Origin: a virus
Direction: 5' to 3' (one strand)
Virus record (IMG/VR): IMGVR_UViG_3300020182_000040
Span: 1 to 57,497 of that record
Length of the DNA: 57,497 nt
Below are positions 8,121-24,045 of the stretch, one piece after another. The translations under genes were made by a program, and so were the position numbers. Each line of letters begins with the position of its first letter. Within the stretch, counting starts at the first letter, position 1. The notes below the pieces were generated by a model. It did no database searches, had not been told where the DNA came from, and saw nothing but the letters and a program-made list of their open reading frames with translations.

Positions 8121-9521
8121 TTACTTAAATATTTTTTTAAGTTCATGAGCCTTTTCATAATAATCATATGATATAGACTTATATTGTTTCCTCTGTGCGT
8201 ATAAATCGCTAAGAATCTTTTTCAAGATCGAATCTTCTTTCTTATATACTACACCATTTTCACAAACAATTTCATCTATGTTTTTACGACGCTCTTCAAT
8301 TTCATTCTCTGGAATAAGGTCAACGTAAGCATCTGGTGAGATGTTAAATTGTCTCATTACTGAAGGATATAGTGACGCAAAGTCAAATGCACTTACACCA
8401 GAATAGTAACCAACTAATGGTTGTTTTACAAATGCACCTGCGTACTTGCCGTCTTTTTTGTTATCCTCTTGATTATAGTCAACTCCAATTTTACGATTCA
8501 TTTCAGCCATTTTACGGGCCATCAATGCTTCGGTTACAGCAACTGGAGAAGCTGCTTTATACAATGGCATTTTTGTAATAGTTGCCAATGTCATAATTAC
8601 TTCCATCGATTTTAGCTTTTGGTCAATATAGTATACCAAAATAGAATCGACTACATTATAGAATACGTATTTTTGGAAGTCATTCTCATATAAATCTTGT
8701 AGACCACCCGTATACTTGATCTTTGCAACGTCAAGAACCTGCCCAGCAACAAAGTCAAGTTTATTTGACTCTTTTACTTTTACACTTCGGTCATACTTAT
8801 CATAAAGTTGCATATAATCAAGAATACCCATATGTAGGGGTCTTGAGTCAGTCTTATCAAGTTCTCCAGTGATCGCAACTTCAGTCAGGTCAATTTGTAA
8901 ACGCCTACATCGATTAACAATATATTGCCAGTCATAGTTAATAAAGTTCCAACCTGTCATCATTGGGAACTTTGGCATAAATTTATGTAAGAACGTGTAC
9001 AGCATATTGTATTCGTCCTTAAATTTATAGTAACTGAATTCCCAATCTTGATCGTATTTCTTGAAGTGTTTCAGTGTGTCATCTTCAATCTTCTTAATTT
9101 GTTCGCTAGATAAATCATCAAGACCTAGCACAATTGCCTTACGATCAGGTGTGATAATCGAAAAGGTAAGAATTCTACTCTTTGCCTCTTCTGCTTTTGG
9201 GAAACCATCAACAATCTCAGTCTCAATATCGACAAAGTAGGTCTTTGGCATATTAAATGCAAAGATTTCTTCCTGATCTTTTTCAGGAAGAGAGTCCATA
9301 AAATACACTAATGAGAACTTGTTGAAGTTACGGGCACGTTGTCTTTTAATTGGTCGACCGTCCCAGTTTCTAAATGTTCCGTCTTTCCACTTATCTTTTT
9401 CTTCAGTGACTACCCAGTTTTCAAACTGAGAGATTGGATATCTTTTAAATGCTACTTTACCTTCTTTATCGTAATATGAGACGATGATTTCTTGGTCTTT
9501 TTGTTCTATATCTAATAGCAT
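8121..9521 (-). CDS. 43: DNA polymerase (family B, gp43-like), N-terminal part
   Basis: A 466-aa protein carrying the N-terminal domain, the 3'-5' proofreading exonuclease and the first part of the palm of a T4-type polymerase. Exo I is Asp98-x-Glu100 (FVDIETE), Exo II is in GWNFINYDW, Exo III is YNVVDS, and palm motif A is the DFASLYPSV block. It ends in the fingers helix (AHELKKIFK) with a normal TAA. The missing motifs B and C are in the gene at 3040-4242. On its own it could at most be an exonuclease. The two products presumably assemble, as the split gp43 of some Aeromonas T4-like phages is taken to do. A TATATAAA element lies 26 nt before the ATG. Confidence 0.93.
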   Translation of the reverse strand: MLLDIEQKDQEIIVSYYDKEGKVAFKRYPISQFENWVVTEEKDKWKDGTFRNWDGRPIKRQRARNFNKFSLVYFMDSLPEKDQEEIFAFNMPKTYFVDIETEIVDGFPKAEEAKSRILTFSIITPDRKAIVLGLDDLSSEQIKKIEDDTLKHFKKYDQDWEFSYYKFKDEYNMLYTFLHKFMPKFPMMTGWNFINYDWQYIVNRCRRLQIDLTEVAITGELDKTDSRPLHMGILDYMQLYDKYDRSVKVKESNKLDFVAGQVLDVAKIKYTGGLQDLYENDFQKYVFYNVVDSILVYYIDQKLKSMEVIMTLATITKMPLYKAASPVAVTEALMARKMAEMNRKIGVDYNQEDNKKDGKYAGAFVKQPLVGYYSGVSAFDFASLYPSVMRQFNISPDAYVDLIPENEIEERRKNIDEIVCENGVVYKKEDSILKKILSDLYAQRKQYKSISYDYYEKAHELKKIFK

Positions 9522-9546
9522 TCGCTTATTTTTAAAGTTATGTTGT

Positions 9547-9554
9547 TTATATAC
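9547..9554 (-). promoter_or_regulatory. Candidate promoter element TATATAAA
   Basis: TATATAAA on the minus strand, 26 nt before the polymerase N-part ATG. The same octamer occurs before other leading genes and is reminiscent of the T4 late promoter TATAAATA. Confidence 0.45.
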
Positions 9555-9684
9555 CCGATTTTTGAGAAGTTTCTCACTTTGCCTCTAAATATGAGATTAC
9601 CATATGAGTAGCTTTGTAATTTGTGGCAAGGGGTACATTACTTATATGTGAAGGTTCACGCTTGTTTCCTAAGCTAATATAAAC

Positions 9685-9713
9685 AAAAAAGCCGAGACTA
9701 AAAAATCTCGGCT
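9685..9713 (-). terminator. Rho-independent terminator after internal-protein cluster
   Basis: An 8-bp perfect GC-rich stem (AGCCGAGA with TCTCGGCT), an 8-nt A/T loop and a T-run on the minus strand, 24 nt after the stop of the gene at 9737-10267. It closes the unit of putative head-internal proteins. Confidence 0.88.
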
Positions 9714-9736
9714 TAAATTATTTTAAATAATGTGAA

Positions 9737-10267
9737 TTAATCAAGTGTCATTTCAAATGGTAAATCACTTGGTTCATAATAGCCATCATTACTATGCAGA
9801 CCATACCATTTTCCACCATCTGTAAAGTAGAACCAATCGTGAGCTACGTCATGAATCACTTTAAAAGGTCTTTGATATAGTTCAAACTTGACTGACTTTG
9901 CACTGCCTCTAGCTAAATCTTTTAGAACTGGAACACCATCATCCCAAGTTTTAGTTGTCGTCGTTGCTTTAATAGTAGCTGATTTGCCTTTTAGTTTTGC
10001 AGTGTATACTTCACCACTAACCTCATCTGCTAAAAGTAAAGCAGCTTCTGAGTCCATTTCATTAAGTACTGACTCTACCAGTGTTAGCTCTTCTGGTGAA
10101 TACTCTTTAGTTTCTCCATTAATAGAGACAATATAGATTTCTTCATCACCATTTCCAGTAGATCCAATAACTGATCCGATCATTCCGCTATCAATACATT
10201 CTACGCTGTCGCCTGCAGTAAAATGAGATTCGTTGATAAACTGTTCGAATAATTTTATGTGTTTCAT
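9737..10267 (-). CDS. Putative head-internal protein with capsid-targeting-like N-terminus
   Basis: A 176-aa protein starting MKHIKLFEQFINES, nearly the same opening peptide as several neighbours. It resembles the T4 capsid-targeting sequence (MKTYQEFIxE) that precedes a prohead-protease cut after L/I-x-E; here the possible cut is INE/S, with another at LNE (SVLNEMD). After the leader comes a small SH3/KOW-like beta segment (GMIGSVIGS, then VSINGETKEYSPEEL). The C-terminal half is aromatic and rich in Asp and Gly (DWFYFTDGGKWYGL). No enzyme domain is recognised. It is the last gene of the cluster before a strong terminator. Packaging inside the capsid is an inference from the leader. Confidence 0.75.
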   Translation of the reverse strand: MKHIKLFEQFINESHFTAGDSVECIDSGMIGSVIGSTGNGDEEIYIVSINGETKEYSPEELTLVESVLNEMDSEAALLLADEVSGEVYTAKLKGKSATIKATTTTKTWDDGVPVLKDLARGSAKSVKFELYQRPFKVIHDVAHDWFYFTDGGKWYGLHSNDGYYEPSDLPFEMTLD

Positions 10268-10278
10268 AATTAGTTTCT

Positions 10279-10878
10279 TTATTTAAGGTCCATTCTAACC
10301 TTAAACTTTCTATCTCTAATAATGTTATTCATCTCGTTAGAAAGGTAGGCTAAGATTTCCATTTGAGCATTCTTAGCAGCTTCATCAACTGAATCTTCTG
10401 CCATGTCGTTTTTGAATTCTTCCCAATTGTCAGCAGTATCTTTATACCACTCTTTAAATGCTTCGATTAGGTCAGTTGAAGGTACATCAAGACTTGGAAG
10501 TTCAATATACTCTTCATTGACTGAAGAGAAAGATTCAAATGTTTTTACGTATTTCATCTTTTTACGTTTCTTTTTATATTCTTGCTTCGCATCACCTTGA
10601 CCTGCAGGAACATCACCAGAGCCATTTGTTGATGAAGTTGGGAGCATGACTGGCCCCATTCCACCGATGTTAGCAGGTGTGATATTTTCTGCAACTTCTG
10701 GTAATCCTTCGTGCTTAGTTTCTGCAAAATCTTTTAATTGTTTGAGTGTCATACCATCAACAAGATCTTTTACCTTATCTCTATATGTCATATCAACATC
10801 AGAGATTTGCATATCGCCAGATTTAACAGCATATGCGACTCCCATTAGTCTTTGTTGCGATTTAGATGTACTTGGCAT
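10279..10878 (-). CDS. DUF3008-like protein joined to a capsid-targeting-like second half
   Basis: A 199-aa protein made of two visible pieces. Residues 1-80 (MPSTSKSQQRLMG through FAETKHEGLPE) resemble the small DUF3008-type proteins found in many marine T4-like phages. A Gly/Pro/Ser linker and a basic stretch (KKKRKK, 102-107) follow. Then from Met108 there is MKYVKTFESFSSVNE, a copy of the leader peptide that opens neighbouring genes, and an acidic helical C-terminal half. It could be a true fusion, a precursor cut by the prohead protease, or a gene with an internal start at position 10557. Its function is unknown. Confidence 0.75.
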   Translation of the reverse strand: MPSTSKSQQRLMGVAYAVKSGDMQISDVDMTYRDKVKDLVDGMTLKQLKDFAETKHEGLPEVAENITPANIGGMGPVMLPTSSTNGSGDVPAGQGDAKQEYKKKRKKMKYVKTFESFSSVNEEYIELPSLDVPSTDLIEAFKEWYKDTADNWEEFKNDMAEDSVDEAAKNAQMEILAYLSNEMNNIIRDRKFKVRMDLK

Positions 10879-10884
10879 AACTTA

Positions 10885-11202
10885 TTATAGTCCTAAGAAT
10901 TCTGCAGCTGCAGCCTTTAACTCGTCGTAAGTGTACTTTCCTGTTAAAGCGTCATCTAAGATAGTTCCTGCTTTTTTACCACCTGTTGCATAAAGTGATA
11001 CATAGTCAAAACCTAACCAGTCTCCACCGCCAAACTCGTGGTTTGGATTTAAACCTAAGTCTACTGCTAAAGTTTTAGAAAGAGATTTTCTTCCTAAGAA
11101 TTGGTCATTATAACCTAATTTGCCAGCTTTAGCGTATTTATTTTCATTAACTGTTGAGTTTGTTCCATCTACGAACTGCTCAAATAATTGTACGTGTTTC
11201 AT
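10885..11202 (-). CDS. Small putative head-internal protein
   Basis: A 105-aa protein starting MKHVQLFEQFVDG, one of the repeated capsid-targeting-like leaders, with a possible later cut at VNE/N (residues 18-20). The rest is Gly-, Ala- and Tyr-rich without a recognised domain. The C-terminus forms a short helix (YDELKAAAAEFLGL). It lies 19 nt after the 718-aa gene and 6 nt before the DUF3008-like gene, in the same unit. A cargo or core role is inferred from the leader and neighbours only. Confidence 0.72.
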   Translation of the reverse strand: MKHVQLFEQFVDGTNSTVNENKYAKAGKLGYNDQFLGRKSLSKTLAVDLGLNPNHEFGGGDWLGFDYVSLYATGGKKAGTILDDALTGKYTYDELKAAAAEFLGL

Positions 11203-11221
11203 CGTTTTATTTTATTTTTGA

Positions 11222-13378
11222 TTACCAAACGTAATCCATTTTTTCAATCTTAGAGATTCTGTCTTTAATTGACTTAGCATAGTTCTTCACTTCTCTTGCA
11301 TAGTAATCGCTACCATAACCTGCCTCTTCCTCACGCTTTGCTTGCTCAGTGTAATCTACATATCTGTTAAAGTCATCAAGAAGATTTTGCATTACGTTAG
11401 AAGCATCTCTTAGTTTAACCTCGCGGCCTTTAGGATCCTTTCCAATAATAACGTCTCCATACTTTCCTTTTTCACCAGTAGCTAAACCATCTTTAATTTG
11501 AGAGGTAACTACATCAATTGCTTTTAGAACCTCTTTGTCTACTGGCATTGAAGCTGCTCTGTCTGCTAAAATAGTATGGTATCTGTCAAGATTTTGTTTC
11601 TTGAAGTCCTTATCACTCTGGAACGCAGTTGCTCCTTTTTTAGCAGCGGTTCTTTCATCTCTTTTTGCGGTTGATGAATATCTTGCTCTTAAAATATCTA
11701 AGTCTAGAACGTATGCTCTATCAGCAAGTTCAGCAACTTTAGATAGACTTGAAATACCTGAACCCCAAGTATCATTAGCTGCACTTTTTCCGAAACCAGA
11801 TCCGTCATTTCTCTTAGTTTTAGATAACGTCTTTGTTCTATCAGATCCCCAAGATCTTGCGTAATCTGTAGCTAGCCATTCGTTTGAACCATTAGTTGCT
11901 CCAAGCAGTGTGTTTCCTGGAATTGTTGTAACTCCCCAAGAATTTCTACCAGCATATGGGTTTGGTTTTTCATTTGTTGTGAAGTATAGGTATACTGCGC
12001 TTTTTCTCTTTTCTTTTCTAGCCTGCTCTGGATCTATTTCGATAATATCAACATCTTGAACTTTATCTAATTGGATTTTAGCCATTTGGTAAAAAGCCTT
12101 AGCAAAATCTTTTGGCATAGAACCTGCACTTGTTAAGATTGACTGTAGTTTCATTGAACTAAATGCCTCGTTAACTACAGATTCATAAACTCCTTTATTA
12201 ATGTTCTTAATTAGTAGTTTAGCTCCCTTCTTGTCAAGCTCATTGTAAATAAAATCCATCATTTGGTTTGGATCTCCATCGTCTACTCCAAATTCAAATG
12301 CTAGGTTTTGATATGCATCAAAGTCCATGTCTGAAATAGCAGCTTCTAAATCAGCGAATACATCTTCGTTCACTGATAAATTATTTACAAAATTAGTAAA
12401 TGATTCAAACATTCTTTTGTTTTCCATTTTTATATCTTCTGTTTCTGTTTCTTCTTTGATAGTTACTGGGTAAGTTTTGCCATCATATTCAAATTCTTCC
12501 TTGCCTTCATCTTTTGCCTTTCTAGCAGCTGCAACAAATGCTCTACCCTCTTCAACATGATCAGCATCTACTGATTCTTCTAATTTCTTAGCAGCTAATT
12601 CTGGATCCTTCTTAGAAACATTATCTAAATAAGAACCATCTCCCCAGAATTTAACAACTAATTCAGTTTGAGTAGTTGAATGCATACCCGGTTTGTAGAC
12701 TGCTATATCTCTTAATTTCTTGTTAGAAGCAATGGTTTGCTTCATGAAGTCAAGAGCTTGTTTTTCACTTCTGAATTTTTTCATAGCACTTACACCATCG
12801 CTATAGATCACTTCATAGTTTTCAGTAACTACTGATTCTTCAATATATTCTGCTAGATCTAGATCAGCCCAACCAAACTCTTCGTCTGCTAATACTGCCT
12901 CAAGATCCTTTCTTTTACCTTGCATTGTAATAACTGGAGTTCCACCACCTGGACCTTCCATTTCTTTATTAATAATCTTAACTCTATGCTTCTTTAAGAA
13001 CTTTAAGAAGTCTTTGTTATCTGGATCCATTGCGTCCATTTCGACGGTTGCTTCGAATAGAATTTCTTCGCTTTCATTTACTGTAACTGATGAAAGTGCT
13101 CTTTTACCAAAGGTTGAAAGTGAAATACCATCTTCAGATACCGAGAAGTATTTTGCGTTTCTACGCATCCATTTTCCAGAATCTGTAGAAAACTCTTTTA
13201 AGATTGCATTGAATTCTTCTTGAGTAATCTTACCATCAGCAATAGCTTCTAGCATTTTATTTCTGACTCTTGCAACCTTTCCAGCCTCAATTGCCGGATG
13301 GTTTTCAGTATATCTTCTCTTTAGAGTAATCTTTCTAGACTCGTCTAAGTTGTTAATAAAGTCGTTAAAATTTGACAT
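11222..13378 (-). CDS. Large putative head-internal protein with two leader-like segments
   Basis: A 718-aa protein opening with MSNFNDFINNLDESRK (possible cut LDE/S). A second leader-like block, MENKRMFESFTNFVNN, lies near residue 320, followed by VNE sites. The N-terminal third is charged and helical. A segment EFEYDGKTYPV before the second leader matches a segment in the 505-aa protein of the same cluster. The C-terminal half (from about 400) is a globular Lys/Asp-rich region with no enzyme motif that I recognise. The arrangement suggests a precursor of two internal proteins separated by proteolysis. A TATATAAA element lies about 20 nt before the ATG. Confidence 0.72.
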   Translation of the reverse strand: MSNFNDFINNLDESRKITLKRRYTENHPAIEAGKVARVRNKMLEAIADGKITQEEFNAILKEFSTDSGKWMRRNAKYFSVSEDGISLSTFGKRALSSVTVNESEEILFEATVEMDAMDPDNKDFLKFLKKHRVKIINKEMEGPGGGTPVITMQGKRKDLEAVLADEEFGWADLDLAEYIEESVVTENYEVIYSDGVSAMKKFRSEKQALDFMKQTIASNKKLRDIAVYKPGMHSTTQTELVVKFWGDGSYLDNVSKKDPELAAKKLEESVDADHVEEGRAFVAAARKAKDEGKEEFEYDGKTYPVTIKEETETEDIKMENKRMFESFTNFVNNLSVNEDVFADLEAAISDMDFDAYQNLAFEFGVDDGDPNQMMDFIYNELDKKGAKLLIKNINKGVYESVVNEAFSSMKLQSILTSAGSMPKDFAKAFYQMAKIQLDKVQDVDIIEIDPEQARKEKRKSAVYLYFTTNEKPNPYAGRNSWGVTTIPGNTLLGATNGSNEWLATDYARSWGSDRTKTLSKTKRNDGSGFGKSAANDTWGSGISSLSKVAELADRAYVLDLDILRARYSSTAKRDERTAAKKGATAFQSDKDFKKQNLDRYHTILADRAASMPVDKEVLKAIDVVTSQIKDGLATGEKGKYGDVIIGKDPKGREVKLRDASNVMQNLLDDFNRYVDYTEQAKREEEAGYGSDYYAREVKNYAKSIKDRISKIEKMDYVW

Positions 13379-13397
13379 TTTTTATAAAATTTGTTTT

Positions 13398-13405
13398 TTT
13401 ATATA
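13398..13405 (-). promoter_or_regulatory. Candidate promoter element TATATAAA
   Basis: TATATAAA on the minus strand, ending about 20 nt before the ATG of the 718-aa gene and overlapping the last codons of the upstream gene. It is the same octamer as at 9547, 18574 and 22758. Confidence 0.4.
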
Positions 13406-15237
13406 TTCTTAATAAACTCGTTGAACGTCAGTAGTGATGCTTCATTAGCAGCCATCGACTTTTCTAGCTTAGCCTTTAGTTCATCATACATTCCATGGAT
13501 TTCGCTTGGGGTTAACTTCTTAAATAGTTTCTCATCTCCAGCTAACATCGCATTTCTAACCTGAGTTGCTGAAATGTTTTTACCAGTTCTTGGAATTTCG
13601 AATAGACCAAAATCAGTTCTAACACCTAAATCTTCTCTATAAACTGGTTTATCGACTTGATGCGAATATGTTTTAAGTCTATCAGTTCCAGTACCCCATA
13701 GTACAGGCTCATATCCATCTGCTCTCATTGCATTAAATAGATGGTCGATGCCTGCGGTTGGTAGTACATAAACCTTTTCGATTGGATATTTTGACTTTAA
13801 CTTATTTAGCATTTCAATTTGAGTGTCCTCATCATAAGGTCTAGAGAATGCATCTTCTTTCTTCTTAGTTTTAGACTTAATTAGGAAGATTACAACTGGA
13901 TGTCCATTTTGCTTATGGATCGTTTCTAATACCTTTGCATGTCCTAGTGTAAATGGTTGGAATCTACCAACAAACATATTAACTAGCTTCTGTTGTTCAG
14001 GATATTTAACATTAAGAGCTTCAGTAATTGGGCTCTCCTGGTGTTTTAGTCCTTGGTTTTGTAAATACGTTTTGAATGTCATAACCGATGCTTCATTGCT
14101 TTTTGCCATAATCGAATTATCGATCTTATCGACAATCTCGTTGATCTGTCTCATTAGATCAGCATTAATGATCTGTGTTTCTTTAACCCTTCTTTTTCTA
14201 AAAGAGCCAAGCGCTATTTTATATAGTTCCTCGAGAACCTCATTTGAAACATACTCAATTGTCTTCTCGTTCTTAATAAACTTAGTGTTAAGTTTAAATT
14301 CTGGAGAAGAAGCAAAATCAGCTGAATCAAATGTTACTCCAACATATTTGGTAGCGTTTTCTGAAACATATGCATTGAATAGTTTAGAAATTAATTCAAT
14401 GTATCTTTGATCTGCTTTCTCTTCGTTTAATTCGATGCTTTCAATATCATATGTTGTAAAATATTCAACTAGATCTAGAAGTGAAAGCTGGTACATATGA
14501 GATGGTTCTCTTTCTTCTTTCTTGATTACAACATCTTCACAAATCTTAAAGTTCTTAACTGAAGTAGAATCAAAAAAGTTAATCACAATTGAATCAATAG
14601 TTCCATCAAGACCCTCATTTAACGCAGTTGAGTTCATTGCTGGGTTAAAGATATTGTACATTTTTCTTGAGAATGTAATATCTTCAAATACTTTAACATA
14701 CTCAGCATCTGATAGAGCCATTAATTCAGAAAGTTGTTCTCTTTGGAACTCATTTAAACTTCCACTAAATAGAACCTGTGGTCTTTGTACCTCTAGTACA
14801 TCAGCCCATTTATTAAGAATCTTTGGGTCTCTAATTACCTTTTTAATAAGAGAATGATCTGCTGGATTTAAAACTTGAATGTGTGTTAACATTAAGTTGT
14901 TCTTTGGTATTCTATCGTATTTGATATTTACCGTTTTTGAATCTATCATATAGTCAAATCCAAACTTCCAGTCTTTTGGCATTTCCTCTTTGTTATCTTC
15001 ACTGATTGAATCAAAGTGGCTAATTGCCGATTCGTAGTATTTTACGATTGTTCTATCGACTGCATTCATTGGCTTTTTACTTCCACTCTTGAAGTAATTG
15101 TAGCCTTCTACTGTTGATTGAACATGAAAAGACGACGCTTGTAACTTCTCAGTAACAACACATGGAAGTTTAAGCATCGCTTGAAAGTCATTAGTATTTG
15201 ACTCGCTATAATATGTCTTTAAGTTTTGTAGCGCCAT
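13399..15237 (-). CDS. Ligase-like nucleotidyltransferase fused to NMN-adenylyltransferase-like domain
   Basis: A 612-aa two-domain protein. The N-terminal ~370 residues resemble the RNA/DNA-ligase nucleotidyltransferase fold: motif I TEKLQASS with Lys31, a motif IV-like EGLDGTIDSIVI, and a motif V-like FKICEDVVIK. The C-terminal domain is a cytidylyltransferase/NMNAT-type Rossmann fold with GRFQPFTLGH (424-433) and ISATQVR (555-561), the two nucleotide-binding signatures. Between them is a leader-like segment (SVMTFKTYLQNQ) ending in PITE/A, a possible prohead-protease site. A similar segment (LLTFNEFIKNI) ends the protein. NAD or nucleotide-tagging chemistry is likely; the exact reaction is not shown by the sequence. 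Confidence 0.8.
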   Translation of the reverse strand: MALQNLKTYYSESNTNDFQAMLKLPCVVTEKLQASSFHVQSTVEGYNYFKSGSKKPMNAVDRTIVKYYESAISHFDSISEDNKEEMPKDWKFGFDYMIDSKTVNIKYDRIPKNNLMLTHIQVLNPADHSLIKKVIRDPKILNKWADVLEVQRPQVLFSGSLNEFQREQLSELMALSDAEYVKVFEDITFSRKMYNIFNPAMNSTALNEGLDGTIDSIVINFFDSTSVKNFKICEDVVIKKEEREPSHMYQLSLLDLVEYFTTYDIESIELNEEKADQRYIELISKLFNAYVSENATKYVGVTFDSADFASSPEFKLNTKFIKNEKTIEYVSNEVLEELYKIALGSFRKRRVKETQIINADLMRQINEIVDKIDNSIMAKSNEASVMTFKTYLQNQGLKHQESPITEALNVKYPEQQKLVNMFVGRFQPFTLGHAKVLETIHKQNGHPVVIFLIKSKTKKKEDAFSRPYDEDTQIEMLNKLKSKYPIEKVYVLPTAGIDHLFNAMRADGYEPVLWGTGTDRLKTYSHQVDKPVYREDLGVRTDFGLFEIPRTGKNISATQVRNAMLAGDEKLFKKLTPSEIHGMYDELKAKLEKSMAANEASLLTFNEFIKNI

Positions 15238-15243
15238 AATAAT

Positions 15244-15393
15244 TTAAATTAAGCTGGCCAGATCATTACTGTGCCTGCATCGTACCATTGTTCTAGGTCC
15301 GTCAATATATGCTGTGATCCAACCCATCATTGAGTTACGATCTAAAACTGAAGCTTCGTTTAGAAACTGTTCAAATAGTTTTACGTGTTTCAT
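15244..15393 (-). CDS. Tiny protein with capsid-targeting-like leader (49 aa)
   Basis: A short frame from ATG 15393-15391 to TAA 15246-15244. It starts MKHVKLFEQFLNEAS, the clearest example of the repeated leader with a textbook L-N-E/A cut site, followed by about 34 residues (DRNSMMGWITAYIDG and a basic Cys/His tail). It lies 2 nt after the previous gene and 6 nt before the next. The leader and the packing make it credible despite its size. It may deliver a short peptide into the head, or be a trimmed remnant of a longer gene. Confidence 0.7.
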   Translation of the reverse strand: MKHVKLFEQFLNEASVLDRNSMMGWITAYIDGPRTMVRCRHSNDLASLI

Positions 15394-15395
15394 GA

Positions 15396-15662
15396 TTACT
15401 TAACTCCTAATTTATTAAGGAACTTAATCCATTGATCATCATTGTAATGAAATCTGTCTTTAGCTCCTAGAGACCAATACATATCGAAAATGTCTCCTGC
15501 TGTATCGGCATCAACTGCATAGTTTGATACAAGATAGTCTACAAATTCTTCTGGCATCATTTCCATTGAATCTGGGTTTGATAGTATGTCAACTAGTTCA
15601 GCCATATAATGACTAGCCTTTCTTTCACTAAGAAATCCTTCAAATAATTTTACATGTTTCAT
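15396..15662 (-). CDS. Small putative head-internal protein
   Basis: An 88-aa protein starting MKHVKLFEGFLSERKAS. I chose the ATG at 15662, one nt after the upstream stop, because the leader begins there; an earlier in-frame ATG (15674) would add four residues and overlap the upstream gene. A possible cut is LSE/R. The body is acidic and helical (MPEEFVDYLVSNYAVDADTA), looking like a small helical-bundle domain, and ends with KFLNKLGVK. No family is recognised. Confidence 0.75.
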   Translation of the reverse strand: MKHVKLFEGFLSERKASHYMAELVDILSNPDSMEMMPEEFVDYLVSNYAVDADTAGDIFDMYWSLGAKDRFHYNDDQWIKFLNKLGVK

Positions 15663-15663
15663 G

Positions 15664-16959
15664 TTACCTTCCAAATTTTATAATACCCATTAGCTGGTTA
15701 ATTGCAGCAAAGGTACCTGTTAATTTATAAATTTTGCCCTTATATGTAAATACAATACCTTCAGTTGGAATAATAGACTCAATGCCTCCAATACGGTCAA
15801 GTCTTGCTAATTCAGCTTCAACCTTCGAGATTTGATCGATATTACCTCCTTTTTTAATCTTAGCTGCTTCATCTCTAAGCTCTTTATGTAGCCTTTGCAT
15901 TTCTGCACTTGGATTAGCTGCAACAAAATTAGAAGCATTTTTAAGAATAACACTTCCTAGTTCTAAGAAAAGATCTTCAAACGGTCTAATGTTTTCTTTA
16001 TATTTCTTCTTAACATCATTCTTATCGAATTGCTTAACTGCATCTGCCTGTTTTGGCGTAATAGTTTTAGCAAGACTTCTCATGTTTAGAGATTTCTTAT
16101 CATCGTATGCCCATCTTAATAGTAGGCCCTCTTTAATGTCTTGTGGAAGATCTCCAAATACAGATTCAATTTGCTCTCTCCACCACATTTCATGGTAACG
16201 AGAAACCTCATCAGCATCTGTTAAGTTATATTGTTTACGTAGGTCTTCTACCTTTTTAATAAACTTGTCTTTATTAGCTTCAAAATCTAAATCTTTACCA
16301 AGTTTTACAATTTGAGGTGGAATGAATGTAAATGTTTTACCAATAGTAGCCTCTACTTTATCGAGAGCACTTGCGATGCTCTTAGCTGGCTTTGTGTCTT
16401 CACCAATGATATTACCCTCACCGTCAGTTATCTTAATGCCGTGGAACTGTATTACATCACGGTCATAGTGAATAACGTTTGGGTTCTTTGAGTAGATTAA
16501 CTCCATATTCATGAAGTTCTTACCATTATCGAAATTCTCTTGATCTTTTGGTGAGATTTTAATTAGTTGAGACGCTAAATCCTCTGCAGCTAATTGGAAA
16601 GTGTCCTGAACAAGTTTACTAGGATGACCTTCAAACTTTTTCTTAAAGTCTTGCAGTGACATTGGATTCTTAAGCTCAGTTTTATTACGTGCAAACTTTA
16701 CCTCTCCATCCTGGATGGTTGCAAATACGTTTTGACCATCCGTCTTTTCAGTTGCTTCTTCTTCGAAGTTAAGTTCTCCTTTAAGACCTGCCTCGATTAG
16801 TTTTTTAAAGTCGCCAAACGTAAGAGATTTATCATCAAACGGGTGTGACATATGACCAGCAGCACCTCCTTCCATAACAAGTTGAGAATCTCTCCACTCA
16901 TTTAGGTCTTGGTTTGCCTTTTCAACTAAAAAGTCGCTATATGATAGTAATAATTTCAT
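15664..16959 (-). CDS. Ligase-like nucleotidyltransferase with capsid-targeting-like leader
   Basis: A 431-aa protein. It starts MKLLLSYSDFLVEKANQ (possible cut LVE/K). A conserved block GGAAGHMSHPFD follows at 31-42, of a kind I recall from other marine T4-like phages. The nucleotidyltransferase motifs are motif I EKTDGQ with Lys72, FARNKTEL near 89-96, MNMELIYS with Glu153, motif IV EGIVFTYKG at 400-408 and motif V YKLTG with Lys412. This is the order of ATP-dependent RNA/DNA ligases, but the substrate is unknown and no DNA-binding OB domain is obvious. It is the first gene after a hairpin terminator. With the next-but-two gene it makes a pair of ligase-like enzymes in the cluster. Confidence 0.8.
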   Translation of the reverse strand: MKLLLSYSDFLVEKANQDLNEWRDSQLVMEGGAAGHMSHPFDDKSLTFGDFKKLIEAGLKGELNFEEEATEKTDGQNVFATIQDGEVKFARNKTELKNPMSLQDFKKKFEGHPSKLVQDTFQLAAEDLASQLIKISPKDQENFDNGKNFMNMELIYSKNPNVIHYDRDVIQFHGIKITDGEGNIIGEDTKPAKSIASALDKVEATIGKTFTFIPPQIVKLGKDLDFEANKDKFIKKVEDLRKQYNLTDADEVSRYHEMWWREQIESVFGDLPQDIKEGLLLRWAYDDKKSLNMRSLAKTITPKQADAVKQFDKNDVKKKYKENIRPFEDLFLELGSVILKNASNFVAANPSAEMQRLHKELRDEAAKIKKGGNIDQISKVEAELARLDRIGGIESIIPTEGIVFTYKGKIYKLTGTFAAINQLMGIIKFGR

Positions 16960-16977
16960 TCAGTTACAAATATAATT

Positions 16978-17017
16978 AAAAAGTTTGACATAGAAAAATC
17001 TAGGCCAAACTTTTTTT
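16978..17017 (-). terminator. Terminator after 505-aa internal protein
   Basis: A 16-bp arm pair (16978-16993 with 17000-17015) matching at 14 of 16 positions, a short loop and T-runs on both sides. It would work on the minus strand after the gene at 17024-18541. Its symmetry means it could also act on plus-strand transcripts. Confidence 0.75.
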
Positions 17018-17023
17018 AATTTT

Positions 17024-18541
17024 TTATCCTAAAGATGATGTTAGCATACCAACAGCAGCTCCATAGTCTCCATCAGATTTTGAAAGAATACCATCAACTA
17101 CTTCTTGTGCTTTAGCATCATCAAAGTCTTCACCAAATGCTTTTTGAAGTACTGTGAATGCATACTCTTTAAATTCATCATCTGATTTTACTTCAGCTTC
17201 AGTAACTTTAGCCTCTCCCATTACTTCAACCTCTTCTCTTTCAGTTTCTTCAACATCTTCAGAGTCTCCGGATGGAGATGGATAACCAGCTGGATTTGTA
17301 TGTTCTCCATTGATTTCAGACTCATTTGCAAACTCTTCAGCATTCTCTTTATCATCAGCATCTACTCCTTTAAGTTTGTATGTTTTACCATCAACTTCAA
17401 ATTCGCTTTTACCTGCAGCAATTGCCTTTGCTCTTGCGGAACCAAATGCATTACCTTCAGCAATTCTTTCTTCCATTGTTTGAGCAGATTCATTAAAAGC
17501 TTTGTTGAATCTAGCCATTAAATCTTCAGCTTCTTTAGTATATCCAATTGAATCTAAGTACATTGCAGTACCTTCAACAATTGCTATACCTGAGAATTTA
17601 GCTGCACCTGATATAATACTACCGTTTGCTGCACAGATATCCATTAATTTACCTGCTGAAATTCTAATAGATGCATTATTTAATTCTGCAACCTTGACAT
17701 CGATTGAGTAAACTACGCCAGGAATTGCTCTTTTAGTTGCTGGGAGCTCTCTAGAAAAGTTAGCGTCAATCATTGCTTCTGCATATAATTCTCTAACAGC
17801 ACCGACATGATGTTTAACTGGAACACCTATAGCCTTTTTACTTAAAGCTGGATATTTCTCAAAGAATTTAACGTATGTTGTCATAACTCTTTTAGCATCT
17901 CTCTTACCAGTAACTACAACTGCTTCACCGATAAATGCTTCAAAAGCTGGAACCATATTATCATCTTCATAAGTATCAGCCATATACCATTTACCATCTC
18001 TCTCATCGTATAGGTAAATAAATTCTGCCCACGATTGTTTTGCATCGCTGATAAAATCTCTAATTGAACCAATGTTACCAGTTAATGGCTCATTTCCGTC
18101 ATTATAATAGTTAATTTTCTTTGGGTCAGCTTCTAGTCCAGATCCTGCACCATTTTGTAGAACTACATCAATGTTCTTTTTCTTAGCACCACTATAACCC
18201 TTTTGGATTAGGGGTAACATATTTTCTGGGTAACCATCGTAGTGCATATACACTGCTTCGATGTCTCCTGACTTCTTGCTTATTTTACCAAAGAAAGAAC
18301 GAGTACCTTCTGTTACAAGAGATAGTGATTCATTTAGATCAGTTCCGTCTAGTTTACCAAAGAATTCTTCTCTTTGATCTTCATCTAATTCTGAAACCTT
18401 AGTAACACCATACTCTGCAAGAAGATCTTTAAAACTTCTTACTGTTTCTTCTCTAGCAGCTTCTTTTTGTGCTTCAATTTCAGCTGAAACTTGCTCTTGT
18501 CTTATTTTTGCGTAGTCTTCAAATGAATGTAATTTAGCCAT
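17024..18541 (-). CDS. Putative head-internal protein with HxDGYPE-type region
   Basis: A 505-aa, very acidic protein. The N-terminus MAKLHSFEDYAKIRQE resembles the leader of its neighbours but is more diverged. A coiled-coil stretch follows (EIEAQKEAAREETVRSF), then possible cut sites LNE/S and VTE/G near residue 70-80. Residues about 93-180 contain YMHYDGYPENMLP and FIYLYDERDGKWY, a compact domain known from other phage and bacterial proteins but without an assigned function. Near the C-terminus is EFEVDGKTYKL, shared with the 718-aa protein, then an acidic linker and a helical end. A scaffold, core or packaged-cargo role is inferred. Confidence 0.75.
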   Translation of the reverse strand: MAKLHSFEDYAKIRQEQVSAEIEAQKEAAREETVRSFKDLLAEYGVTKVSELDEDQREEFFGKLDGTDLNESLSLVTEGTRSFFGKISKKSGDIEAVYMHYDGYPENMLPLIQKGYSGAKKKNIDVVLQNGAGSGLEADPKKINYYNDGNEPLTGNIGSIRDFISDAKQSWAEFIYLYDERDGKWYMADTYEDDNMVPAFEAFIGEAVVVTGKRDAKRVMTTYVKFFEKYPALSKKAIGVPVKHHVGAVRELYAEAMIDANFSRELPATKRAIPGVVYSIDVKVAELNNASIRISAGKLMDICAANGSIISGAAKFSGIAIVEGTAMYLDSIGYTKEAEDLMARFNKAFNESAQTMEERIAEGNAFGSARAKAIAAGKSEFEVDGKTYKLKGVDADDKENAEEFANESEINGEHTNPAGYPSPSGDSEDVEETEREEVEVMGEAKVTEAEVKSDDEFKEYAFTVLQKAFGEDFDDAKAQEVVDGILSKSDGDYGAAVGMLTSSLG

Positions 18542-18573
18542 TTGTAATATCTTATTTTTTGATTAACATACCT

Positions 18574-18581
18574 TTTATATA
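18574..18581 (-). promoter_or_regulatory. Candidate promoter element TATATAAA
   Basis: TATATAAA on the minus strand, about 33 nt before the ATG of the 505-aa gene. It overlaps the last codons and stop of uvsW. Confidence 0.45.
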
Positions 18582-20083
18582 TCTCCATCAAATTTAACCT
18601 TTTTGATGTCATATTTGAACTTTTGTTCTCTGTAAATTTTTTGTCTGGCCTTTGCATGTCGAATAAGATAGTTGTCCCAGTCTGGCGAACTAATATCGTC
18701 CACAAAATCAATGATTGTAACACTGTCCTTCGATTCATGTTGTCTCAATCCACGGCCAATCGATTGACGAATAATTACCTCACTCTTAAACGATTCAGTA
18801 AAGAAGATGTTGTGGATTTTCTTGATCGAGATACCAGTCGAGAAGGTACCATACGATGCGACAATAACAACTTCATTACCGGCTTCCATTTTCTTTTTGT
18901 ATTCTTCGCGTATGTCCTTGTCAGTTCCACCATCAACATAATAGATTGTCTTATCACTTTCCTGTCTAAGCTTTTCATATATCTTCTTACCATGCTCAAT
19001 GCGATGGAAAAGTACAAGGGAATTACCTCGTACTCTGGAAATAATGTTACAAATGAAGTTGAGGCGGCCTGGCGAATTGATGATATAATTTTGTTCAAAT
19101 TTAAATACGTCTTTGCTTTCATATTTATTAAATGCCATTTCCTTAAACGCGTTCTTTGCGCCTTCGGTTGCGTAGTCCATCTCAATAACTTTTACTCGAC
19201 AGTTTGCAATATAACCTTCATTCTGAAGGAAATTTGCACTTACTTCGGTAATTAGTGGACCAGTATAGGCCATTAGTGTTAGTCGATCCAGGGTTCCAGA
19301 CTTTGGTATAGTACCAGAAAGGCCATATCGATAGTCGGCATTTTTACACTTCGATAGGATCGTTTTAATTGACTGTGATTTTGCCTTATGTGTTTCATCA
19401 ATAATCACAGCATCAAATTGGTCAAAGTATTCGGCTTTCTTCTTAATTAATGATTGATAGGTACCAATCACTACGTTTCTACCAGCTCTGATCTTTTGAC
19501 CGCTATAAATTTGCTGAATCTTTATGTTTACCTGGTTTCGATAGTTATAATCTGCAAAATCTTCACTTGCTTGAATTACAAGTGAAACGTTTGGTACAAT
19601 AAACAGGATCTTTTCAGCCTTTTGTTTCTCTAAAATATATGCAACTGTTAAGAATGATATCAGTGTCTTACCAGCAGATGTTGCAAGCTCTGAGAGACAC
19701 TTTCTAAACTTTAAAATGTTATATGCAGCCTCGACTTGATAGTCACGAGGTGTAATGTCTGAATCTTCAAAGAAGTCTTCTACCCAACTTTGAAATGATT
19801 CTGGATTAATTTCACGGTCAAATAATTCACTAATGCCATTAATCTTTAGCTCGAACCTGTACTCTTTACAGACGTCCATCACCTCTTTCCAAAGACCTGC
19901 AGGAATCCACTTATCGTCCTTGATATAGGTAATGTAGCCGTCCCATACCCCTTTCTTGACCAAAGGGTTGAATCTCCACGATTCTATTCTCTTGGTCAAG
20001 GATATATTCAACTGTTCAAGCTCTAATGAAGTAGCATCATCAACTCTAAGTAGTTGTTTATTCTCTGTTAAACTGAGCTCCAT
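18575..20083 (-). CDS. uvsW: UvsW-like DNA/RNA helicase
   Basis: A 502-aa superfamily 2 helicase, almost exactly the length of T4 UvsW (503 aa). UvsW unwinds R-loops and branched DNA and helps switch replication from origins to recombination. The motifs in order are the Q-like TPRDYQVEAA at 111-120, Walker A ATSAGKT at 134-140, DETH at 229-232, SGTIP near 254 and motif VI QSIGRGLRQHE near 443. The N-terminal ~100 residues match the small UvsW N-domain by size. It is 26 nt after uvsY, as in the T4 uvsW-uvsY cluster. The stop overlaps a promoter-like element for the next unit. Confidence 0.95.
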   Translation of the reverse strand: MELSLTENKQLLRVDDATSLELEQLNISLTKRIESWRFNPLVKKGVWDGYITYIKDDKWIPAGLWKEVMDVCKEYRFELKINGISELFDREINPESFQSWVEDFFEDSDITPRDYQVEAAYNILKFRKCLSELATSAGKTLISFLTVAYILEKQKAEKILFIVPNVSLVIQASEDFADYNYRNQVNIKIQQIYSGQKIRAGRNVVIGTYQSLIKKKAEYFDQFDAVIIDETHKAKSQSIKTILSKCKNADYRYGLSGTIPKSGTLDRLTLMAYTGPLITEVSANFLQNEGYIANCRVKVIEMDYATEGAKNAFKEMAFNKYESKDVFKFEQNYIINSPGRLNFICNIISRVRGNSLVLFHRIEHGKKIYEKLRQESDKTIYYVDGGTDKDIREEYKKKMEAGNEVVIVASYGTFSTGISIKKIHNIFFTESFKSEVIIRQSIGRGLRQHESKDSVTIIDFVDDISSPDWDNYLIRHAKARQKIYREQKFKYDIKKVKFDGDI

Positions 20084-20109
20084 TCATAGGCACAGTTTTT
20101 TTATTTGCC

Positions 20110-20535
20110 TTACAGATCTTTTAATGCAAGTCTGTTTCGGATGGCAAATCCCATGTTATCTAGGGTCTTTACCGATTCTTTAAAGAAGTCTAATTGGTTC
20201 TGTAAATGTGAGAGCATTATGTTTTCATCAGCTAGGTCAGCTTCGATAAAACGGTCTTTTTGCTTCTCACTTAATTTATAGTCAAAATTATAGTACTCAA
20301 GATATTTTTCTCGGTACCTATCATTTATCCTTCTTTCTTGTTCCTTGATCTTCATGTTTATGTAAGCAATCTGATCAATGATAATTTGGCGGTTAGAGAG
20401 CACCATTGCAATAGTGTCCTCCATACCGTTGATATAACGAAGCGACTTAGAAAGATCTTGGATTTTTAAGGTCCATTCCTTTCTTTGTTCACTTAGTTTT
20501 CCATCAAGTGCTAAAATCTTTTCTTTATTCGACAT
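20110..20535 (-). CDS. uvsY: UvsY-like recombination mediator
   Basis: A 141-aa, strongly helical, charged protein. Length (T4 UvsY is 137 aa), composition and position beside uvsW support assignment as the mediator that loads UvsX onto gp32-coated single-stranded DNA. The helix QRKEWTLKIQDLSKSLRYI fits the DNA-binding N-terminal region, and the C-terminal helices fit the oligomerisation region. There is no sharp motif, so context carries much of the call. It lies 10 nt after the 71-aa gene and 26 nt before uvsW. Confidence 0.82.
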   Translation of the reverse strand: MSNKEKILALDGKLSEQRKEWTLKIQDLSKSLRYINGMEDTIAMVLSNRQIIIDQIAYINMKIKEQERRINDRYREKYLEYYNFDYKLSEKQKDRFIEADLADENIMLSHLQNQLDFFKESVKTLDNMGFAIRNRLALKDL

Positions 20536-20545
20536 CTAATCTTGT

Positions 20546-20761
20546 TTAAAACAACGAACCCTTATTACCTTTAATGAACTTACTAGCCTTTAACTTCTTC
20601 TTAAATTTTGGTTTTCCAAGATCAAGCTTCGGTACATCATGTTCGTATTCTGATGCGTTGAAATCTACCAGCATTCGCATACCTTTAAATCGGTCACGAT
20701 CACTATAAAAATCATCTAGATCCTTTTCAACCATATCTGTAATATCTTCTATATATACCAT
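20546..20761 (-). CDS. Small basic-tailed hypothetical protein
   Basis: A 71-aa protein with an acidic N-terminal half (IEDITDMVEKDLDDFYSD) and a very basic C-terminus (FKKKLKASKFIKGNKG). It overlaps the primase end by 13 nt and precedes uvsY by 10 nt, so it is part of the recombination and priming operon. The polarised charge suggests a small DNA- or protein-binding adaptor. No family is recognised. Confidence 0.75.
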   Translation of the reverse strand: MVYIEDITDMVEKDLDDFYSDRDRFKGMRMLVDFNASEYEHDVPKLDLGKPKFKKKLKASKFIKGNKGSLF

Positions 20762-21825
20762 AGATCTAACGAGCTAGAGGTGAAGTAGTCATCCAACTTT
20801 TTAATTGCTGGATTCTTTAACTCAAAACACTTGATAACTAAGTCGTTTAGATCCTTTATATCATATGTATCTAATTTATTTTCTTTTAAGAATTTAGACC
20901 ACATAAATACAGATCTTCCCTTTTTTAGTTTCTCAATCATTTTCTTTTTACCAGTATCGTCATTATCAAATAGATACCGGACCGTTGCCATTTCATCGAA
21001 CTCTTCAGTGTTACGACCTGCGGTTGCAAGTGCAATACTATTAGTCATGAATTTAGCATCAATTGGACCTTCAAACATTGTTACTGGACGCTGGAAGTTT
21101 ACTTGCATAATACCAAACAGTGTCGATAACTTTGTTACCTTTTCCAAATCTTCTTGTGAGAGCTCAAGTTCTTTACCAAGCTCTTCATATAGTTTAGGTA
21201 AATCATACGTTAAGTAACGACTACCTTTACCCTTCATTCTTCTACTTTGTGCTGACATAATCTTACCGTCTCCAGTAAAATTAAGAATCCATAAACGATT
21301 GTCCTTTGCACTAAATAAAAACTCTTCGCTCTTTTTATGAAGCAATCTATTTTTTAAGTAGAGCCAAATCCAATCTCCAGGTTCTATTTCTCTTGCACCA
21401 AATCCTTTTTTAAACTCATCAACTGTTATTGCTAAGTCACTTACACTTTGAAATACTGAGTGTGTTAGTGTATCTGCCTGTGAAGTTACAGACCTGTTGT
21501 GTTTGATATAGTCAATAATGGTAAATGAATCCTCTGAACTTGGGAGTCTTACCTCGTGGTCCTTTAAGAGAGTCTTTACATCAGTATGTGTTCCACAGTT
21601 ATAACAGTGATATTGAAGCGTGTCCCAATACATGTTACCGCGTTTCTTGGTATCATCACTATGCGAATCCCCACAATAAGGACATGCCATAGTAATTCTA
21701 CCAGGCATGTCCTTTAGCATTTGCTTGTTGGGACTTGAATGTGCTGTCAGACAAACGTCTTTCAGCGCTTTCATAATCTTTAGTTTAAGCTCTTGAGTTA
21801 TCTGTGGATTAGATGTCGAGGTCAT
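20749..21825 (-). CDS. 61: DNA primase, gp61/DnaG-like
   Basis: A 358-aa primase (T4 gp61 is 342 aa) that makes RNA primers with the gp41 helicase. It has an N-terminal zinc ribbon with Cys48-x2-Cys51 and Cys74-x2-Cys77 (CPYC and CYNC). A TOPRIM catalytic fold follows with Glu252-Gly253 (MFEGPIDAKF) and the acidic cluster DNDD at 287-290. The gene overlaps the gp32 end by 17 nt, putting single-strand binding protein and primase under one control. The start overlaps upstream coding sequence and has no Shine-Dalgarno, so coupling to gp32 translation is likely. Confidence 0.93.
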   Translation of the reverse strand: MTSTSNPQITQELKLKIMKALKDVCLTAHSSPNKQMLKDMPGRITMACPYCGDSHSDDTKKRGNMYWDTLQYHCYNCGTHTDVKTLLKDHEVRLPSSEDSFTIIDYIKHNRSVTSQADTLTHSVFQSVSDLAITVDEFKKGFGAREIEPGDWIWLYLKNRLLHKKSEEFLFSAKDNRLWILNFTGDGKIMSAQSRRMKGKGSRYLTYDLPKLYEELGKELELSQEDLEKVTKLSTLFGIMQVNFQRPVTMFEGPIDAKFMTNSIALATAGRNTEEFDEMATVRYLFDNDDTGKKKMIEKLKKGRSVFMWSKFLKENKLDTYDIKDLNDLVIKCFELKNPAIKKLDDYFTSSSLDLWYI

Positions 21826-22717
21826 TCAAGAAAGAATCTAAATCATCATCACTTGAAACTTCTGTAGTTGAACTGCTTGTTGGAGCAGCAACAGCTTCAG
21901 CAACTTTTTCTTTCTTTGGTGCCGACTTCTTTGGAGTTGATGAAGTTGAGATCTCAGAGATTGCATCTCCAGGATTCAAATACATTTTTAGTACTCCATT
22001 TACAAAATCACGAGTTTCACCATCCCATGCTTTGTAGTCGTAAGTTGCGAGTGAAGGTGCTTCATCAAGTTCTGCTTTGATTGCAGCCATTGATTCTTTT
22101 GTTCTTTCAGCTGGTTCACCATTAACGTTAACTGCTGATCGGGAAGATGAGAACTTAGACTTATCGTAGTTGTTGTATTCGCCTTGTCGTGTGATAATCA
22201 ACTCAAAGTTTTTACCTTCAAATAGGTCAAATACTTGTGTTGGTTCACCGAAGTCTGGCTTCAATTCAGCATCGATCTTTTCTTTGATCTTGTAACCGAA
22301 CTTGAATACTTTGTAAGTTCCTTCTAGTGCTGGATTCTGTGGATCCTTAATAATTTTGATTAGTGAGTAGTACTGCTGACGTCTTTTTAGTTTGTCAGAA
22401 GCTTTACGATCTACTGCACTGTCGCTGTTACGAAGTTTCCAGAATACATCTGCGATTGGGCATTTCTCACCAACTGTTGATGGAGAGTCTACCAATTTAC
22501 CGTTGCCATTAGCATCTGTTAGCCAATGTACGTACTTTTGAATCAGAGAATTACGTGGATTCTCAGGATTTGGAACGAAGCGAACTAACGCTTTGTAAGT
22601 TCCGTCTTTACCGTCATCAGCTGTTGGTTTGTAAACTTCATTTGCTGATGTTGTTGCTTGGGGTTGATGCGTTTCTACGTCTTCTACACCCAAATTGAAA
22701 ATGTCAAAATCTGCCAT
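21809..22717 (-). CDS. 32: Single-stranded DNA-binding protein, gp32-like
   Basis: A 302-aa protein (T4 gp32 is 301 aa) that coats single-stranded DNA and coordinates replication and recombination. The central OB-fold region is recognisable (QQYYSLIKIIKDPQNPA, then YKVFKFGYKIKEKID). The C-terminal tail is acidic (SSDDDLDSFLNDLDI), as used by gp32 to contact partners. In the zinc region His64 is kept and one Cys remains (Cys86), but the other two Cys expected from T4 are absent, so zinc binding is probably lost. It leads an operon with primase after a 296-nt upstream region containing a TATATAAA element. Confidence 0.9.
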   Translation of the reverse strand: MADFDIFNLGVEDVETHQPQATTSANEVYKPTADDGKDGTYKALVRFVPNPENPRNSLIQKYVHWLTDANGNGKLVDSPSTVGEKCPIADVFWKLRNSDSAVDRKASDKLKRRQQYYSLIKIIKDPQNPALEGTYKVFKFGYKIKEKIDAELKPDFGEPTQVFDLFEGKNFELIITRQGEYNNYDKSKFSSSRSAVNVNGEPAERTKESMAAIKAELDEAPSLATYDYKAWDGETRDFVNGVLKMYLNPGDAISEISTSSTPKKSAPKKEKVAEAVAAPTSSSTTEVSSDDDLDSFLNDLDI

Positions 22718-23013
22718 AATACTTAAAAATTACCTTTAAAAATGTTTAATTGTGTACTTTATATACCTCTAAATAACAATGTTTCACCGCCATAGGTTGA
22801 TACTAAATCTTTTTTAAAGCTGTCGCGCTTGAACGTTTCCTTCTAATTGAGGACCTAATTTAAAGATTATTGTATCGGACGAATGTTGGCTTGTAACATC
22901 ATCATATATTATATATCTAAGAAATGGGAAGTTTCACGCAAAAAGTTAGCACAATTTGAAACTTTTTTCTCAAAGGTGCATATAACTTTCAGGTCTTTGA
23001 AAGAGAGATAAGG
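22718..23013 (-). other. Upstream region of gp32, with possible gene remnant
   Basis: This 296-nt gap is the longest in the window. Near gp32 is a TATATAAA element (22758-22765). Two partly overlapping open stretches in different frames (22814-22933 and 22759-22842) read like a single small protein broken by a frameshift, but neither has an ATG. At the far end are A/T-rich inverted repeats (around 22929-22964) without a clear T-run. In T4, gp32 represses its own translation through its leader; whether this region does so is unknown. Confidence 0.4.
22758..22765 (-). promoter_or_regulatory. Candidate promoter element TATATAAA
   Basis: TATATAAA on the minus strand, 41 nt before the gp32 ATG. 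It is the same octamer as before three other leading genes. Confidence 0.45.
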
Positions 23014-23667
23014 TTACTTGGTTTCAGGGGTTGATATCATAGCTGCTAGGAAGAACGCGTCCACTAAATCATCAAGCGGCTTTGGTATCTTTTTCCCAAA
23101 CTCTTGTTCTTTAATCCAAGCATATAAGGGGCTCTTCTCTAGGTTTTCGTCCCCAATTCGATTCTCCAAAAAAGCCTCAAACAATTGTAACTTATTCATA
23201 TTTCCCTTTCCAGCAAATTTCTTAATTGAGGTCGGAGCGACAGTCATTAAGTCTTCTGGTCTTAAGGTTTTAAGAAGCTTTAGTTTTAGGATAGCGGCGC
23301 CAGCAGCCATATCAATTACATTATTAGTCCCCATCTTTGAGCCATAACTGGTACCCTCAAAAGCAATTGTAAAACCTTCTCCTTCGAAACAATCCTGTAA
23401 AACTAAATTGATAATATCATCTGCCATTCGGTCATATCTTTTGACCTTTGCAAGCTCAACACTTGAGAACTCTTCTTCTTTTGTAAAATCAGGCTGACTA
23501 ACGAGAGTAACGTCTTTTAAAAGAGACATCTCCTCTTGGAGCTTTTGCTCCTTCTTTGACCCAGTACCAGGTTTCATATAAGCGATGAAGTGGTACTTTT
23601 TACTCTTATCATTATATAGACAAATCCCTGGAGAATTTAGGGAAAAGTCGATTGCTAGGTAATTCAT
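23014..23667 (-). CDS. RuvC-like Holliday junction resolvase
   Basis: A 217-aa RNase H-fold nuclease. Asp7 lies in the first strand (LAIDFSLNSPG), Glu104 in the second core strand (IAFEGTSYGS), and Asp199/Asp200 and Asp203 in the last helix (PLDDLVDAFFLA). This is the acidic quartet order of RuvC and related resolvases. It would cut branched recombination intermediates before packaging, the job done in T4 by the unrelated endonuclease VII. It starts immediately after the preceding stop. The gene lies at the boundary between tail and replication genes. A different RNase H-fold nuclease cannot be excluded. Confidence 0.82.
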   Translation of the reverse strand: MNYLAIDFSLNSPGICLYNDKSKKYHFIAYMKPGTGSKKEQKLQEEMSLLKDVTLVSQPDFTKEEEFSSVELAKVKRYDRMADDIINLVLQDCFEGEGFTIAFEGTSYGSKMGTNNVIDMAAGAAILKLKLLKTLRPEDLMTVAPTSIKKFAGKGNMNKLQLFEAFLENRIGDENLEKSPLYAWIKEQEFGKKIPKPLDDLVDAFFLAAMISTPETK

Positions 23668-24045
23668 TTACATGTTTTTACCAAGAGCAGCACCTAATGC
23701 AGCACCTACAAGTCTTGAAGTTAATAGATCGTAAAATACTCCCTTCTGAATACCTAACACTTTAGCAATTAGTTTACCAACTGATTTACCTAAAGCAAAT
23801 CCAGTTAAACCACCAAAAATAGATCCTAATAAACCTTCATTAGTTAACTCTTCATTAAATTTATTAATGTCAAGTTCTCCATTTTCATTAGAGTATTCGG
23901 CAACGAATTGTTCAATTGCCTCATCAACCTTCGCTTCAAGCTCTGAAGTCCACTCAGATTCTAAACCTTCGGTTAAGATTCTTAGATCCTCTTCAGTAAT
24001 TTGTTGTTCCTGTAGGTATTCTTTAAATGTCTTAATATCTTTCAT
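23668..24045 (-). CDS. Putative head-internal protein with glycine-zipper hydrophobic domain
   Basis: A 125-aa protein starting MKDIKTFKEYLQEQQ, another capsid-targeting-like leader. I prefer this ATG (24045) to one six codons upstream that overlaps the previous gene. Possible cuts are ILTE/G and LTNE/G. The first half is acidic and helical. The second half has two hydrophobic Gly/Ala-rich stretches (GLLGSIFGGLTGFALG and LVGAALGAALGKNM) spaced like glycine-zipper membrane segments. If the leader is cut, a small membrane-active piece would be released inside the head, which would suit DNA ejection. This role is inferred. Confidence 0.72.
   Translation of the reverse strand: MKDIKTFKEYLQEQQITEEDLRILTEGLESEWTSELEAKVDEAIEQFVAEYSNENGELDINKFNEELTNEGLLGSIFGGLTGFALGKSVGKLIAKVLGIQKGVFYDLLTSRLVGAALGAALGKNM

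Follow-up and report, generated by a model that had tools for sequence, protein, structure and literature searches.

The DNA stretch analysed here (positions 1 to 57,497 of the IMG/VR virus record IMGVR_UViG_3300020182_000040; 57,497 nt, hereafter the window) contains a set of genes whose products open with almost the same short peptide. This shared leader is very probably a capsid-targeting sequence (CTS) and cleavage sequence of the phage T4 type, belonging to a much enlarged system in which the tagged proteins would be packaged into the phage head and cut. An earlier reading of the sequence alone had proposed such a T4-like capsid-targeted cargo, and our analysis supports it: the residues of the leader agree with those that govern targeting and processing in the T4 CTS, and the leader is present on a gene at the position of a prohead core gene, beside gp21. 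We base the conclusion on the shared leader of unrelated proteins, the tagged gene beside gp21, the residue and cut-site pattern, the presence of the protease and the existence of C-terminal copies that lack the Glu.

The window covers part of the genome of a T4-like phage and has genes for a replicative helicase, UvsX, a UvsW-type helicase, gp32, a primase, a DNA polymerase in two open reading frames (ORFs), ribonucleotide reductase, and tail and baseplate proteins. The same phage is represented by a longer, 130 kb record, G001, in which the gene set of the window recurs and the 612 amino acid (aa) protein is identical; the relationship to G006 and G007 is more distant. The leader peptides listed in the sequence-only reading were verified at their places, all on the minus strand, as were the internal copies in the 199 and 718 aa proteins. 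The relevant features of the window are as follows.

9737–10267, minus strand: 176 aa putative cargo protein; leader MKHIKLFEQFINE, then S.
10279–10878, minus strand: 199 aa protein; DUF3008 domain at residues 4–61, lysine-rich linker, and a second domain after an internal tag.
10885–11202, minus strand: 105 aa putative cargo protein; leader MKHVQLFEQFVDG, slipped site TVNE/N.
11222–13378, minus strand: 718 aa protein; leader MSNFNDFINNLDE, then S.
13399–15237, minus strand: 612 aa protein; Rnl2-like ligase domain, linker, NMNAT/CoaD-like domain, linker, C-terminal tag.
13402–13434, minus strand: C-terminal tag copy LLTFNEFIKNI without the Glu at P1, residues 602–612 of the 612 aa protein.
15244–15393, minus strand: 49 aa ORF; leader MKHVKLFEQFLNE, then A.
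15396–15662, minus strand: 88 aa putative cargo protein; leader MKHVKLFEGFLSE, then R.
15664–16959, minus strand: 431 aa putative RNA-ligase-like nucleotidyltransferase with KTDG and EG motifs; leader MKLLLSYSDFLVE, then K.
17024–18541, minus strand: 505 aa protein; weak leader MAKLHSFEDY without the Glu at P1.
23668–24045, minus strand: 125 aa protein; leader MKDIKTFKEYLQ (also MKDIKTFKEYLQE), hydrophobic glycine-rich C-terminus.

The internal tag of the 199 aa protein, MKYVKTFESF at residue 108, lies between the linker and the second domain. The 718 aa protein, a possible polyprotein, has internal sites that include TVNE/S, SVNE/D and VVNE/A, and the 505 aa protein has DLNE/S at residue 71 and LVTE/G at residue 78. 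The 49 aa ORF combines a perfect leader with the appearance of a decayed or minimal cargo gene, and has the same length in G001. A leader-profile score above 20 was reached by 4 of the 47 ORFs in the window, 13 of 151 in G001, 6 of 144 in G006 and 24 of 200 in G007, and by none of the shuffled N-termini in all 200 shuffles; as the profile was trained on these same genomes, the shuffling is a control for composition and no independent test.

Weighted by family, position 11 of the leader is I, L, V or M in 91 % of cases and position 13 (P1) is Glu in 85 %, while position 14 (P1′) is A, S or G in 55 %, against a background of about 18 % at later positions. By its residues, this pattern is a predicted gp21-type cut site. 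Proteins without the Glu at position 13 often have a slipped [LV]NE/[ASG] site, displaced by an insertion, as in MKHIKLFEQFEASLNE/A and MKHVKLFEAFVASQKLNE/G. In the family of the 431 aa protein, which was delimited by its enzyme domain with no use of the leader, F/Y7, F/W10 and position 11 are each conserved at 100 % and E13 at 88 %, and residues 14–26 vary. Strict [ILV]NE/[ASG] sites are enriched 4.8-fold in the bodies of the cargo proteins (z 6.7), whereas the remaining proteins show no clear excess (z 1.4); this suggests that some cargo proteins may be cut into pieces.

In T4, residues 4 and 7 of the tag MKTYQEFIAE act in targeting and residues 8 and 10 in processing, and Asp at position 10 blocks processing but not targeting (PMC9026906). 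The T4 pairs Y4/F7 and I8/E10 have the spacing of F/Y7 with F/Y10 and of I/L/V11 with E13 here. Like the T4 internal proteins IPI, IPII and IPIII (the leaders of IPII and IPIII were taken from the T4 sequence NC_000866), the proteins of this group combine an N-terminal tag of 10–13 residues with diverse mature bodies and a hydrophobic-x-Glu motif, which is cut by gp21 in T4. In contrast to T4, the leader has a longer basic start (MKH[IV]K), a record may contain up to about two dozen tagged genes rather than a few, and the tag is also found at C-termini and between domains.

The leader is widespread in related marine T4-like phages. The 315 distinct leader proteins fall into 135 families with unrelated bodies; a profile search identified 49 N-terminal copies in G001, G006 and G007 together, and in 80 further loci the leader stands at the start of 151 of 1537 ORFs, compared with 7 of 4101 random internal windows. 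The exact 13-residue pattern occurs in at least 118 IMG/VR stretches, whereas the 84,980 bacterial and archaeal GTDB genomes contain no copy. Five records of the group have 5, 4, 12, 10 and 20 matches to a looser pattern, and LR756500 has 11; the reversed form of the pattern always gave none. The looser pattern was likewise absent from T4, S-PM2, PTm1, pT24, MaF61, Mel-JY01, Lak-B1 and LR756501, and is therefore no general T4-like feature in this form. By family, the leader is nearly all-or-none: in many cargo families every member carries it, and it is essentially missing from gp32, primase, UvsY-like, RuvC-like and other conserved families (with none in most conserved replication-gene families). 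The enrichment in a locus that the sequence-only reading had proposed to look for by profile search was thus observed, with leaders concentrated in a few gene clusters and nearly absent from conserved replication genes. The leaders are more than chance. We dismissed as chance the RuvC-like matches (LFEAFLEN near residue 160), which lack Glu at P1 and lie within a conserved enzyme.

The proposed system calls for a gp21-like protease, and the gene was located outside the window, in the longer records. In G001, gp21 (Peptidase_S77, PF03420) is encoded at 93458–95458 (L025), with gp23 at 95552–97009; relatives encode gp23 as well. PF03420 is present in G001, G006, G007 and G009, and of 24 large records with the leader, 19 encode gp21. 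In G001, G006 and G007, gp21 is fused to a long, acidic, site-rich tail that looks like the gp22 scaffold, and PTm1, a Tenacibaculum phage, is annotated likewise. The scaffold part of the fusion contains 33, 34 and 27 [LIVM]xE motifs, against 15–18 expected (z 3.7–4.7); T4 gp22 is also rich in the motif.

Between the portal gene and gp21 lies a small gene in the position of T4 genes 67 and 68, which starts with MKYVKLFEQFIKE in G001, MRYVKLFEQFIKE in G007 and MIIKTFEQFIAIKE in G006, and has the leader, clear or degenerate, in most of 19 further loci. The leader therefore sits in the head-assembly module. By its location and its acidic C-terminal part the product is a candidate counterpart of gp67/gp68, and unlike them it opens with the cargo tag. 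Upstream of the portal gene, a 400 aa protein (G007 49048–50250, L037; G001 88472–89686) has 24 [LIVM]xE sites in G007 (z 4.8), the largest excess in that record, and is possibly a second core protein.

Copies of the motif at C-termini differ from the N-terminal leaders in a specific way. Relative to protein interiors, the final 22 residues are enriched about 21-fold in the motif core. The C-terminal copies keep both aromatic residues, but just 2 of 50 distinct ones have the Glu, compared with 95 of 132 N-terminal ones (Fisher 4e-18, which is too optimistic because the sequences are related). The copy that ends the 612 aa protein is conserved, and was overlooked in the sequence-only reading. 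In 38 homologues of this protein, T604, F/Y605 and F/Y608 are invariant and position 611 is never Glu; E599, just before the tag, is conserved at 89 % and mostly followed by Ser; and [LIVM]xE406/[AG] is invariant, with ITE/A at residue 406 in the window. In the predicted structural model, E406/A407 and E599 lie in the least ordered stretches and the tag is a separate short helix, so the conserved [LIV]xE/[AS] sites are predicted to fall in disordered linkers of this ligase–NMNAT protein.

The first domain of the 612 aa protein has T4 Rnl2 as its best PDB match (E 9e-7; the global TM-score is low owing to the two-domain query) and a conserved active-site lysine (E30-K31), and is a putative RNA ligase with an Rnl2-like fold. 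The second domain (PF01467) matches NMNAT and CoaD in the PDB, its GRFQPF..GH and ISxTxxR-type motifs are invariant or nearly so in the 38 homologues, and we regard it as a putative NMN adenylyltransferase. The two folds are those of T4 RNA ligase 2 and NMNAT/CoaD, with the difference that the domains are fused here, separated by a predicted cut site and followed by a tag at the C-terminus; in the window's phage, the NMNAT domain reads as lying between predicted cut site and tag. In G007, the ligase protein ends in SPIDEANLLTFSQFLDKDI, and the NMNAT domain is encoded by its own gene with a full leader, MKHIKLFEQFINE. The L075 contig carries two diverged copies of the ligase–NMNAT protein (9336–11183 and 13397–15280). 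In the 431 aa protein, the KxDG and EG motifs are invariant and the match to an RNA ligase fold is weak (E 9e-3); a PDB sequence search with its profile found no relative. Other tagged proteins have HD, ATP-grasp/RimK-like, AAA_33 and DUF5661 domains, and one from G028 (L176 4615–5373) has the Thoeris inhibitor Tad3 (PF25185, E 9e-22) behind the leader and a second site, INE/G.

Several findings weigh against a T4-type targeting and cleavage sequence. The group's gp23 shows no T4-like F..F[IL]xE site, about 15 % of families lack E13, some of them with no clear slipped site, and the general density of [ILV]xE/[ASG] in cargo bodies is ordinary, with no enrichment. The C-terminal tags come mainly from the family of the 612 aa protein, plus two smaller families (DUF3008 proteins and a protein of about 150 residues); the DUF3008 proteins L128/L129 are an exception, with a near-C-terminal FIFE/K; and the enrichment of sites upstream of C-terminal tags is weak (35 of 50, against 30 expected by shuffling). 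A cut site upstream of every C-terminal tag is accordingly weakly supported as a general rule.

As amphipathic peptides can serve many targets, the peptide could instead be a localization or partner-binding tag for another phage structure or a membrane, with the Glu left uncut. C-terminal copies would suit such a general docking peptide. However, the same copies nearly always lack the Glu, where nothing downstream would need to be freed, and the tagged gene that separates portal from gp21, the A, S or G after E13, the slipped sites where E13 is missing and the identical spacing in T4 all argue for targeting and cleavage, and we consider another target unlikely.

We judge it very improbable that a DNA or RNA element underlies the shared start (a translation signal, or a recombination site through which genes are shuffled) and that the peptide is a by-product. 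There is some nucleotide preference near the start (AAA at K2 and K5, TTA or CTA at L6, CAC at H3), and the clustering of tagged genes is suggestive of shuffling. Nevertheless, the 315 genes have 288 different 39-mers, and the codons used for F7, E8, F10, N12 and E13 differ little from background, which places selection on the protein; together with the copies at C-termini and inside proteins, and a conservation that ends abruptly past P1′, this rules against a nucleic-acid element. Least probable of all is ordinary paralogy, in which one ancestral gene was duplicated and the bodies diverged past recognition: many small tagged proteins with no recognized domain do adjoin one another, but the differing domains and folds of the bodies (RNA ligase, NMNAT, HD, ATP-grasp, Tad3), the conservation of the leader and not of the adjoining linker, and the C-terminal tags rule against it.

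For the T4-type targeting and cleavage sequence, we propose a mechanism in which the amphipathic peptide would bind the prohead core (the gp22-like scaffold and the protein in the gp67/68 position) through F/Y7 and F/Y10 and so carry the tagged protein into the prohead. The gp21-type protease would cut after [ILV]-x-E, usually ahead of A, S or G, releasing the cargo from the core, and the mature proteins would be packaged alongside the DNA and enter the host at infection. The precedents of T4 Alt and IPI (PMC9026906), with the presence of Tad3, lead us to suggest that the cargo may be delivered into the host and act against its defences. We hold as evenly balanced a broader proposal: that the peptide is a position-independent capsid-loading tag, whose N-terminal copies end in a cut site and whose C-terminal copies drop the Glu and are cut before the tag, that internal sites split polyproteins in the prohead, and that at least 20 exchangeable proteins per phage, including NAD- and RNA-repair enzymes and an anti-Thoeris protein, are delivered to blunt host defence.

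T4 Alt, a packaged ADP-ribosyltransferase, is processed by gp21 at both ends (PMC9026906); unlike the proteins here, it has a 7-residue N-terminal propeptide, and the text consulted describes no shared Glu-less C-terminal tag. The head proteins of the Salmonella phage SPN3US and of phiKZ are alike in that many internal proteins are cleaved by a gp21 homologue after a short motif ending in Glu; SPN3US has nine identified substrates, mostly with long propeptides of 111–254 residues (PMC10052503). Among open-licence papers, our literature search found nothing on Tad3 with Thoeris or on capsid targeting in metagenomes, and measured against that literature, what is new is the scale of the system, the C-terminal version of the tag and the cargo identified.

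The closest named major capsid proteins are those of LR756500 (a huge uncultured phage), Prevotella Lak phages, and Tenacibaculum and Flavobacterium phages, which makes a Bacteroidota host a reasonable inference; a DNA similarity search against named phages gave no match. Elsewhere in the window, the B-family DNA polymerase is split into two ORFs (8121–9521 and 3040–4242) with both ribonucleotide reductase genes between them, a gene order that is similar in G001, G006 and G007. In the tail region, a 436 aa protein (48608–49918) with a GVEFEF motif has no PHROG match, and presumably resembles amidoligases.

The leader offers a sequence-only route to predicting the head-carried proteins of uncultured phages. 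The tag is common in environmental T4-like phages, mostly on proteins of unknown function, and the recognized cargo (Tad3, NMNAT and RNA ligases) suggests that counter-defence and repair functions are injected. It may provide a second capsid-targeting peptide, beside that of T4, for loading foreign proteins into phage heads, and a test of the generality of the T4 rule that targeting residues are separate from processing residues.

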